Below, one piece after another: positions 6,186 through 11,328 of a stretch of DNA of 64,000 nucleotides. Each line of letters starts with the position of its first letter. Positions within the stretch are counted from its first letter, which is position 1. Under the pieces are notes generated by a model. It did no database searches and had not been told where the DNA came from. It worked only from the letters and a program-made list of their open reading frames with translations. The DNA lies in NCBI RefSeq assembly GCF_014651115.1, contig NZ_BMWG01000002.1, forward strand, positions 258,070 to 322,069. Reading direction: 5' to 3'. This DNA is from Streptomyces inusitatus (GTDB lineage: Bacteria; Actinomycetota; Actinomycetes; Streptomycetales; Streptomycetaceae). The position numbers and the translations under genes were made by a program.

Positions 6186-8978
6186 TCAGCGGGTGGTGCG
6201 GTAGGCGTCGGCGGCGGCCCGGTAGGCCTCCGTCACCTTGTCTCGCTGCTCGTCCGGGCCGATCACCTGGACGATGTGGTAGCTGCCGTCGAGGAGCATC
6301 ACCAGATTGCGGACATAGACCTGGCGGCCCGCCGCGTCCTGCCAGCTGTACTGGCCTTCGGCCATGACGCGCTGGCCGACCTGTATGCGCCGCAGACCGG
6401 TCGCCTCGGCCCAGGACGACTCGCGGTACGGCTGGAGTTCGCGCTGCTTGTCGCTCTGGTAGGTGAGCGGGTCGCCGCCGCTCGTGCGGACGGTGTCCCG
6501 GCCGGGGACGACGATCAGGGTGAAGTCGCCGTCGCTGTAGCGGATCTGGCCGATGTCGTTGATGGGGCGGCGCTGCCAGGTCTTGTCGACGGCGGTACGG
6601 AAGCCCTCGGGGTCCTCGCGCAGGACGTACCCGGCGGGCACATCGGCGGCGGGCGCGGTGGTCTGGGGCTGCCGGGAGCCCTCGGCGGCGGTCCGCGAGG
6701 ACGACGGCGAGGGCGAGGACCCGGCGGTGGTACGGGCCGGGCCGGGGCTCTCGGACGCGGTGGGGCGGGGGGTGGCCCCGCCCTGGGGGCCGGTGTCGTC
6801 CTGGCTGTCGGCGGCGGGCATGAACTTCACGGCGTAGGCGATCGCCCCCGCCATGAGCAGCAGGATCAGCAGCAGCAGAAGGCGGCCCAGCGACCGGGGG
6901 CGGCGGCGCTCCGGGCGGGGCTTCTTGTGGCGGTGTCTGCCGTGGACCACCTCGGCGGAGCCGGTGCGGCGCTTGCGGACCAGCTCGCCCCTGCGGCGTA
7001 CGACGGGGAGTCTGCTGCCCTCGGGCGCGCTCGGCGGCGGGAGCTGCACCACGCCGGTCCCGGCCTCGGGCTCGGGGGCGGAGCGCACCAGCGAGCGCAG
7101 CCAGCCGCGCAGCTCCTCGACGTCCGGGCGCTCGGTGGGGTCCTGGCGCAGCAGGGATTCGACCACCGGGCGCAGCGGGCCGCACTCCTCGGCGTAGGCG
7201 GGCGGCTCGGAGCAGACGAGCTGGACCAGCTCGGCGGCGCTCTCCTCGGGGTAGGGGGCATGGCCCTGTACAGCGCGGTAGAGCAGCGCGCCCAGTGCCC
7301 AGAGGTCGGTGGCGGGGCCGACGGGGGCGGCGAGCTGCCAGTTCTCATGGACGGGGCCCGCCTGTTCGGGGGCCCAGCGCTCGGTGACCGCGCCGACGAC
7401 GGCGATCCTCGCCTGCCGGGCCCGTTCGGCGGCGAGCGGGGTGGCGGGCCCCTGGTAGAGGGGGGTGTCGCCGGGCATCGCGATCTCGTCCCAGCGGCCG
7501 GGCGCGGGCGGCGGCTCGGCGGCGGGCAGCGGGCGGCGCTGCGCGTCGGCGCGGAGTGCCTCGCGGCCCGCGCCGCCCCGGTCCCAGCCGCCGGAGGCGG
7601 CGGACGCGCCGGACGCGGGCAGGGCTGCCGGGCGGTCGCCCGGGGAGGGCTGCCGCTGCCGGTGTACGCCGTAGGGATCGGTCTCCCGGTACGGCGCGAG
7701 CGCCTGGCCAGCCGGGTCCGCCGGGTCGCCCCGGTCCGTGGGGGACTCGGGGCGGGGGGTGCGGGGCGCGGGCAGAGCCCGGGGCTCGGCGGGCAGGAAG
7801 CCGCCGCCGGCCGGGAGCGGCGGCGGGCCGTCCTGACCGGGGAAGGGGCTGTCGTGCCAGGTCCCGGCGAGCCGGGCGTAGCCGCCGCGGTCGGGGTCCC
7901 GGCCGTCGTCGTCGAGATCGTCGTCGGGGTCGTCGTCCTGCTGGAGGACGGGTCGGGCGGGCTCTCCCGGCTTGCGCGCCCACCAGTCGGGGTCCTGGCC
8001 GCCGGGCGCGGGAGGCGTGCCGAGGGGCTGTTCCCCGCCGGTGCGGGCCGTGGCGGCGCCGACGCCCGCCCGGTAGGCCGCGACGGCCCCGGGTCTCGCG
8101 GCCCGGACGTCCGGCGCGGGGCTCCCCGGGTGCTCCGGACGGCCCTCGCCCTGCCCCTCGTCTTCGCCGTCGTAGCGGAGGCCCGGTATCAGCTCCCCGG
8201 CCTCGTCGCCGTCAGCCTCGTACTCGTCGGCCTCGTACTCCTGCTCCTGCTCCTGCTCCTGCTCCTGCTCCTGCTCGTACTCTGTGCCGTCGTCGTCATC
8301 GCCGTCGTCGTCGCCCGTGTGGTCCGCGTAGTCGGTGTCGTCGAGGTCGTCGTCGTACGGCGGGAGCATCTCGGCGTACGCGTCCGGGACCTCCTGGGGC
8401 ACCGGGGCGTACCCGCACAGCGCCTCCTCGGCGGCGCCCGCCGCGAGGCCGGTCAGGACGACGCGGCCGTCGTCGCAGACCAGGACGGTACGGGTGGTGA
8501 TGTTCCGGTGGGTCCAGCCGTGGGCGTGCAGGATGAGCAGGGCGGTCAGAACGTCGGAGGCGACCTCGGCGGCCCGGTAGGGCGTGAGCGGCCGCTCGGC
8601 GAGCAGGGCAGCGAGCGGGCGGGCGGCGACGCGCTCGCTGACTATCCACAGCGAGCCGGCCTCCGCGAAGACGTCGAAGACCTGGTCGAGCCGGGGGTGG
8701 TCGGGGATCTGGGCGGCGGCCTGGGCGGCCTCGACGGCGCGGAGCACCGCCGGGTCGGCGGGCCCCCGGGCCGTTCTCGGCCGGTCCCCGCGGACGGCCG
8801 TGCCGTCGGCCTCGACGACCTCGGCCTCCACGACCTCCGGCAGCGGCACCTGCCGGACCAGGACTTCCTGTCCGCTGTAGGTGTCGAAGGCCCGGGTCAC
8901 GGCCAGTTCGTACGCGTCGGCCGGGGGCAGGGGCAGGCGATAGCGGTCGGCCAGCACCCGTCCCGCGTAGTCGTCCAT
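6186..8978 (-). CDS. membrane pseudokinase with split kinase domain
   Basis: The 930-residue product has a Ser/Thr-kinase-like N-lobe and HGWTHRNIT at about 153-161. The catalytic Asp of HRD is Asn, the DFG position reads TGL (176-178), and no VAxK lysine is evident. An insert of about 340 residues follows, very acidic (Asp runs and six Glu-Gln pairs) then Pro-rich. The kinase fold then resumes with RWAPEQ at 534-539 and PATDLWALGALLYRA. After about residue 630 come a basic region, one membrane helix at about 698-717 and a C-terminal domain of about 150 residues, presumably outside the cell. The ATG at 8978 follows aggggagg. It sits 160 bases downstream of an active-looking kinase, probably as a partner or scaffold. 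It is unlikely to phosphorylate by the usual mechanism. Confidence 0.8.
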   Translation of the reverse strand: MDDYAGRVLADRYRLPLPPADAYELAVTRAFDTYSGQEVLVRQVPLPEVVEAEVVEADGTAVRGDRPRTARGPADPAVLRAVEAAQAAAQIPDHPRLDQVFDVFAEAGSLWIVSERVAARPLAALLAERPLTPYRAAEVASDVLTALLILHAHGWTHRNITTRTVLVCDDGRVVLTGLAAGAAEEALCGYAPVPQEVPDAYAEMLPPYDDDLDDTDYADHTGDDDGDDDDGTEYEQEQEQEQEQEQEYEADEYEADGDEAGELIPGLRYDGEDEGQGEGRPEHPGSPAPDVRAARPGAVAAYRAGVGAATARTGGEQPLGTPPAPGGQDPDWWARKPGEPARPVLQQDDDPDDDLDDDGRDPDRGGYARLAGTWHDSPFPGQDGPPPLPAGGGFLPAEPRALPAPRTPRPESPTDRGDPADPAGQALAPYRETDPYGVHRQRQPSPGDRPAALPASGASAASGGWDRGGAGREALRADAQRRPLPAAEPPPAPGRWDEIAMPGDTPLYQGPATPLAAERARQARIAVVGAVTERWAPEQAGPVHENWQLAAPVGPATDLWALGALLYRAVQGHAPYPEESAAELVQLVCSEPPAYAEECGPLRPVVESLLRQDPTERPDVEELRGWLRSLVRSAPEPEAGTGVVQLPPPSAPEGSRLPVVRRRGELVRKRRTGSAEVVHGRHRHKKPRPERRRPRSLGRLLLLLILLLMAGAIAYAVKFMPAADSQDDTGPQGGATPRPTASESPGPARTTAGSSPSPSSSRTAAEGSRQPQTTAPAADVPAGYVLREDPEGFRTAVDKTWQRRPINDIGQIRYSDGDFTLIVVPGRDTVRTSGGDPLTYQSDKQRELQPYRESSWAEATGLRRIQVGQRVMAEGQYSWQDAAGRQVYVRNLVMLLDGSYHIVQVIGPDEQRDKVTEAYRAAADAYRTTR
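8238..8276. repeat. hexanucleotide tandem repeat (ctcctg) x6
   Basis: Six exact copies of ctcctg plus half a copy encode the Glu-Gln run of the pseudokinase insert. Gain or loss of units keeps frame, so this tract could vary in length between strains without inactivating the gene. Confidence 0.9.

Positions 8979-11328: not shown

Follow-up and report, generated by a model that had tools for sequence, protein, structure and literature searches.

A catalytically degenerate kinase homologue kept beside PkaH in Streptomyces inusitatus and relatives, a candidate non-catalytic partner

The 64,000-nucleotide stretch of the Streptomyces inusitatus genome analysed here (contig NZ_BMWG01000002.1, positions 258,070 to 322,069; hereafter the window) encodes an intact transmembrane Ser/Thr kinase, the counterpart of PkaH (SCO4775), and, directly downstream and likewise on the minus strand, a transmembrane pseudokinase. 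PkaH lies upstream of the pseudokinase at all 118 assessable loci from 13 genera, including those where the pseudokinase has lost its outer domain. We propose that the pseudokinase acts with PkaH, as its non-catalytic partner, in the signalling that controls the spore wall, a reading that we regard as about evenly poised between right and wrong. Its anatomy fits ActPs2, a family that is already published (PMC12599244); to the extent searched, the new elements are the association with PkaH in 13 genera, a long insert confined to one genus, a conserved island in that insert and the predicted PsbP-type outer domain. PMC12599244 and the study of the SCO4775-4779 cluster in S. coelicolor (PMC4416010) were accessible in part, and statements drawn from them refer to those parts.

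For the pseudokinase, translation best begins at position 8978, with the conserved motif [VM][DE][DE]YAGRVLA, and the stop codon ends at 6186. The start of the kinase lies at 11328. In the pseudokinase, Arg replaces the beta3 Lys (VLVR42), the catalytic loop reads H157-R158-N159 with Thr at its Lys and Asn positions, and T176-G177-L178 stands for DFG, immediately followed by a conserved GAAEEALCGY. The DFG region carries a deletion, with LTG in the window against LTDFG in PkaH-type kinases (gap placed by eye). No glycine-rich loop was found in the alignment rows inspected, which read PPADAYEL in the window and PPSDEYEL in orthologue L079 where PkaH-type kinases have GRGGMG. With HRN and TGL, the pseudokinase has neither the catalytic nor the metal-binding Asp of an active eukaryotic-type Ser/Thr kinase. 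The fold resumes beyond the insert with W535-A-P-E and D558-L-W, and the neighbouring kinase keeps GRGGMG, VAVK, HRDVKPSN and DFG intact. The initial annotation, made from the letters of the window, had recognized HRN, TGL, the missing beta3 Lys, the APE and DLW segments after an insert and the intact kinase upstream. Pfam Pkinase matched the pseudokinase in two stretches, the better at residues 93-174, and other searches put the second at about 551-641. No PASTA domain was among the Pfam matches of either protein, and the NCBIfam PASTA-kinase model matched the neighbouring kinase over its kinase part only, below the cut-off of the model.

In all, 141 loci were scanned (the window, 80 Streptomyces loci and L122-L181), of which 122 were retained as orthologues at a score cut of 195, set post hoc in a gap from 199 to 92. 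They comprise 81 Streptomyces copies including the window (the main set), 14 further congeners, chosen mainly among the more diverged matches of an outer-domain search, and 27 copies from the same family but from 12 other genera. Since the 80 loci of the main set are the 80 best among 534 relatives, close relatives are favoured in it. The 19 loci left out had short flanks (L122-L131), lay at contig ends (L155, L161, L162 and L167), were outer-domain matches in other genes (L133, L140, L150 and L151) or had no pseudokinase (L178).

The catalytic Asp is Asn in all 122 orthologues, and the Asp, Lys and Asn of the catalytic loop are all gone in every one of them. At the beta3 position 110 orthologues have Arg and none Lys, and 93 read LTGL where DFG would stand. 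The lesions are identical in the 121 further orthologues and are therefore due neither to chance nor to a sequencing error; a frameshift was likewise rejected on the agreement of the 122. Orthologues keeping HRD and DFG, which the initial annotation would have taken for a sign of sequence error in the window, did not occur: the catalytic Asp is kept in 0/122, and an Asp without FG is present in 7/122. These seven, all from other genera (L132, L135, L138, L139, L143, L144 and L172), read LDGL, with the catalytic Asp already Asn.

Nucleotide binding, or some unusual activity, through the arginines that replace catalytic residues is distinctly unlikely. An AlphaFold3 model of ActPs2 with ATP uses two arginines, R42 and R177 (PMC12599244), and R42 together with the Arg of HRNxTxR, which we guess to be the published R177, is kept in 92 of the 95 copies from the genus. 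However, only four of the 27 copies from other genera have both arginines, and the general loss of the catalytic-loop residues, together with the missing glycine-rich loop in the rows inspected, also argues against nucleotide binding.

The lobes are under purifying selection, with ratios of nonsynonymous to synonymous substitution rates (dN/dS) of 0-0.17 in five chosen pairs, and TERWAPEQ is near-invariant in the 81 Streptomyces copies. A decaying, functionless kinase copy is disfavoured because of this selection, and we find it scarcely credible. The lost catalytic motifs and the slippage-type repeat in part of the insert would suit decay, but the lobes would not be expected to be so constrained, nor HRN to be universal, and a dosage phenotype has been reported for SCO4776 (PMC4416010).

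Judged by gene order, the pseudokinase is the counterpart of SCO4776, between pkaH and pkaD. At the 80 Streptomyces loci the order is PkaH-type kinase, pseudokinase and further kinases, with a PkaD type downstream in 74/80 by motif and PkaI and PkaJ types often next; these type names rely on the PkaI peptide and the gene order as published. One locus (L025) has no further kinase within 6 kb. The start of the PkaI peptide, FGVAQVAGA, was located at L051, L055, L081 and L086, in the kinase that follows the PkaD type. Its position and the gene order therefore make the pseudokinase the SCO4776 counterpart, and identity with PkaI (SCO4778) was rejected. Counterparts of pkaD, pkaI and pkaJ were not found among the 33 kinase stretches of the window genome (99.98% complete), in which PkaH and the pseudokinase are kept; PkaD, PkaI and PkaJ types of four species had PkaH itself as their best match there (48-56%), the next match shown reaching at most 43%.

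The pairing of a pseudokinase with an active kinase, as the initial annotation had it, holds at the loci that were read, which span 13 genera. At 114/122 loci a script placed the PkaH gene upstream, on the strand of the pseudokinase. Four of its eight misses are contig ends (L010, L032, L144 and L164), and the other four do have PkaH, in overlapping open frames (L137, L142, L166 and L168). Between PkaH and the pseudokinase start lie 127-342 bp in 76/78 Streptomyces loci and 1.8-2.4 kb in the remaining two. When the search started from a PkaH DNA pattern, a diverged pseudokinase adjoined PkaH at 10 of 11 loci retrieved from genomes that lack the pseudokinase APE pattern. In a sample of 150 genomes of the family, the PkaH pattern was present in 102 and the APE pattern in 81; two of the genomes without a PkaH match were examined (G101 and G113), and both have PkaH with one residue changed. 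In a sample taken across the class, a strict 51-base PkaH pattern matched none of the 110 genomes from outside the genus, an absence that so strict a pattern leaves unproven.

Several points weigh against PkaH as the partner. At three of the 114 loci (L176, L012 and L083), 0.75-2.3 kb separate the two open frames, and at L178 (contig C374 of genome G022) PkaH has no adjoining pseudokinase. The PkaH pattern found no match in 48/150 family genomes, of which two were examined, so that some genera may lack the pair. In S. coelicolor the five SCO4775-4779 genes are transcribed separately and with differing profiles, pkaH being undetected and SCO4776 constitutive, transcribed throughout the life cycle (PMC4416010); another study mentioned in that article found pkaH highly expressed. 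Because these profiles are separate, a fixed 1:1 complex of PkaH and the pseudokinase is disfavoured. The accessible parts of PMC4416010 and PMC12599244 report no physical interaction between the two proteins. Lastly, the cluster is all kinases, and the neighbourhood of PkaH may reflect tandem duplication. Separately, an oxidoreductase-like frame (assigned by reading) directly follows PkaH at L178.

Alternatively, the pseudokinase could be a PkaH-independent scaffold of a spore-wall complex, with cell-wall proteins or the cluster's other kinases as binding partners, and its adjacency to PkaH could be a relic of tandem duplication. We consider this possible, though on the doubtful side. It agrees with the independent transcription reported for S. 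coelicolor and with the behaviour of a fragment of PkaI, from the same cluster, which binds many cell-wall and development proteins and interacts with PkaD, PkaA and itself (PMC4416010). The interactions of the fragment with kinases also speak for a partnership with PkaH, since neighbouring kinases do bind one another. However, a pair surviving as a mere relic should have come apart in places, whereas adjacency to PkaH holds at every assessable locus, and the window genome keeps the pair with no detected pkaD, pkaI or pkaJ.

The insert that splits the activation segment measures 354 residues in the window, from the DFG equivalent to the ERW of the APE motif. Its length is 209-554 residues (median 321) in the 81 Streptomyces copies and 76-462 in the 14 further congeners, as against 33-159 (median 53) in 27/27 orthologues of other genera. 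Because of this difference (33-159 residues elsewhere, 76-554 in the genus), the large insert looks, as far as sampled, like an elaboration within this genus. Two linkers, with majority-residue fractions of 0.30 and 0.28 in the genus, flank a basic island at 0.89; the adjoining lobes stand at 0.90 and 0.93. Across the five pairs, the island, with its 22 codons, shows dN/dS values of 0-0.16; those of the linkers, obtained on an uncertain alignment, are 0.33-0.79. The island was recognized in 79/81 Streptomyces copies by a strict pattern and in 80/81 by reading (L021 has none), in 7/14 further congeners by the strict pattern and in 10/14 by a looser pattern and reading, and in 0/27 orthologues of other genera. 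It is helical in the structure model of L079, with a predicted local distance difference test score (pLDDT) of about 68-76, and not helical in the model of the window protein, whose island departs from the consensus.

The initial annotation had described about 340 acidic residues here, which could recruit basic partners or carry phosphosites for the active kinase. A long insert does split the activation segment, but its acidity was overstated: there are 69 Asp/Glu and 26 Lys/Arg among residues 201-500, and only the first 100 or so residues of the insert are strongly acidic (39% Asp/Glu, net charge -37), the remainder being rich in Pro, Gly, Ala and Arg. Linker 1 is net negative in 77/77 Streptomyces copies measured (L011, L021, L026 and L034 were missed by the pattern), with a median of -6 and the window, at -37, the most negative; within the same protein, its partners could be the basic island and the stretch of basic residues next to the membrane. 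Even so, a role as bait or phosphosite carrier now appears very unlikely. The insert is short in all orthologues from other genera and only 76 residues long in one congener, acidity is usually mild, the linkers change fast, the Glu-Gln tract is a microsatellite, and no linker Ser/Thr is conserved at 70% or more in the 81 sequences.

The conserved island allows a further reading, which we judge unlikely. The insert would be a regulatory arm that arose in the genus, a conserved basic helix carried within the dead activation segment by two hypervariable tethers that lengthen freely, and it would have been added to a pair of kinase and pseudokinase that predates the genus; the arm would swing to the cleft or dimer face of PkaH, or to a spore-wall protein, as a tethered inhibitor or activator.

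The L079 model, covering residues 1-522, was built from a 149-row alignment to which PkaH-, PkaD-, PkaI- and PkaJ-type fragments had been added. Its kinase core is well predicted (199/522 residues with pLDDT of at least 90), its linkers are disordered, and Foldseek ranked PknB first. The beta3-alphaC loop is 42 residues long in this model, and PkaH-type kinases have gaps at that place. Modelled at full length from 81 sequences, the window protein shows a poor kinase core (means over 10 residues of 34-84) and an outer domain with pLDDT of about 97, preceded by some 60 unstructured residues. The single membrane pass with an outer domain that the initial annotation ascribed to the pseudokinase agrees with this model (helix 696-719, folded 780-930).

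The outer domain is predicted to have a fold of PsbP/Mog1/LpqN type. Foldseek placed PsbP (2vu4) first, VIA-align gave Z 14.5 and a root-mean-square deviation of 2.9 over 139 residues, and Mog1 and LpqN matched as well; Pfam assigns no family to the domain in the window. It is through this fold that the analysis bears on the sensor role which the initial annotation envisaged for the pair. In several other genera the pseudokinase is short and ends right behind the transmembrane helix, without an outer domain and still after PkaH. The outer domain of PkaH may be of the same type, with one weak PsbP_2 match among 21 members; because the profile comparison of the two outer domains is weak (probability 42, E 2.6e-4), a common fold is merely suggested. 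Among PkaH counterparts, two strongly divergent kinds of outer domain occur in separate Streptomyces clades (window 9142-9636): in 20 compared, identity to the window domain was 23-31% or 54-67%. Both kinds adjoin an activation loop of PkaH type, a pattern that an exchange of the sensor domain would give. In addition, L140 (contig C113 of genome G017) is a kinase with HRD and DFG that carries a pseudokinase-type outer domain (E 9.5e-36), hinting at an active ancestor or at domain exchange.

If the pseudokinase is a partner of PkaH, its kinase-fold domain would bind PkaH, or a complex containing PkaH, in the cytoplasm, where it would scaffold PkaH or tune it allosterically (we infer the direction of regulation). 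Control of the spore-wall machinery would be the signalling output, a role transferred from S. coelicolor by gene order. The PsbP-like outer domain would add an input in this genus and be dispensable elsewhere in the family. The long insert would be a genus-specific flexible elaboration, its functional piece in Streptomyces probably being the basic island between the fast-changing linkers. A second SCO4776 copy in S. coelicolor leads to aberrant, vancomycin-sensitive spores, which were ascribed to disturbed kinase activity (PMC4416010). If SCO4776 shares the lesions of its 122 counterparts, this effect must be non-catalytic; the interpretation as overbalancing kinase activity would then fail for SCO4776, and binding or titration would have to be considered. 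The steady pairing with PkaH also gives ActPs2, of no known function in PMC12599244, a testable partner, and the island is a concrete target for mutation in the unexplained ActPs2 insertion.

The features of the two genes are collected in Table 1. Plus-strand open frames run antisense to both genes (6171-9155, 994 aa; 8977-11388, 803 aa). Long antisense open frames are ordinary in GC-rich DNA.

Table 1. Features of the PkaH-pseudokinase pair; coordinates are positions in the window, residues (aa) are those of the pseudokinase
Feature	Position	Strand	Remarks
Pseudokinase coding region without stop, 930 aa	6189..8978	-	ActPs2-like; SCO4776 counterpart by gene order
Intact transmembrane Ser/Thr kinase, 729 aa	9142..11328	-	PkaH/SCO4775 counterpart
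N-lobe to DFG equivalent, aa 1-190	8409..8978	-	R42, HRN159, TGL178; majority-residue fraction 0.90, dN/dS 0.07-0.17
Activation-segment insert, aa 180-534 (linker 1, island, linker 2, APE-side helix)	7377..8441	-	
Perfect hexamer microsatellite CTCCTG (plus strand), 6.5 copies	8238..8276	.	Encodes Glu-Gln run
Conserved basic island in insert, aa 290-312	8043..8111	-	Streptomyces consensus RAARAGAIAAYRAGARAAAR
APE side and C-lobe, aa 506-640	7059..7463	-	Mean majority-residue fraction 0.93, dN/dS 0-0.09
Basic juxtamembrane stretch, aa 656-697	6888..7013	-	
Transmembrane helix, aa 696-719	6822..6893	-	Structure model of window protein
Extracytoplasmic domain, aa 780-930	6189..6641	-	PsbP/Mog1/LpqN-type fold (predicted)

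Among known systems, the pseudokinase most closely recalls ActPs2, an actinobacterial family described in 2025 by a beta3 Arg, HRN, a DFG deletion and a C-terminal transmembrane segment, with a 32-residue beta3-alphaC insertion and an activation-loop extension of about 250 residues in about 90% of members (PMC12599244). The published features that were compared match the window protein, which has a beta3 Arg (even with the same number, R42), HRN, the DFG deletion, the C-terminal transmembrane helix and a beta3-alphaC loop of 33 residues (strand 38-42 to helix 76-89, a length that is approximate in a low-confidence model). The activation-loop extension is present too, at 354 residues in the window; here, however, the long insertion is found in one genus among 13 and holds a conserved island. 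The article describes the ActPs2 insertion as disordered and of unclear function, and its accessible part gives no gene partner, operon mentions included. A paper linking ActPs2 to SCO4776 or PkaH was not found in a literature search outside which most subscription papers lay.

SCO4776 occupies the same place, between PkaH-type and PkaD-type kinases, and is the only gene of SCO4775-4779 without a pka name. However, PMC4416010 counts it among five kinases, and the word pseudokinase is absent from the accessible main text. The window genome also differs from the S. coelicolor cluster in having no pkaD, pkaI or pkaJ counterpart among its kinase stretches. For the outer domain, the likeness to PsbP 2vu4 (Z 14.5, 14% sequence identity) and to LpqN of Mycobacterium tuberculosis (6e5d; Z 12.3, 9% identity) is one of fold only. 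EssB/YukC is likewise a membrane-anchored bacterial pseudokinase, but it belongs to type VII secretion and its activation loop is attenuated rather than extended (PMC12599244).

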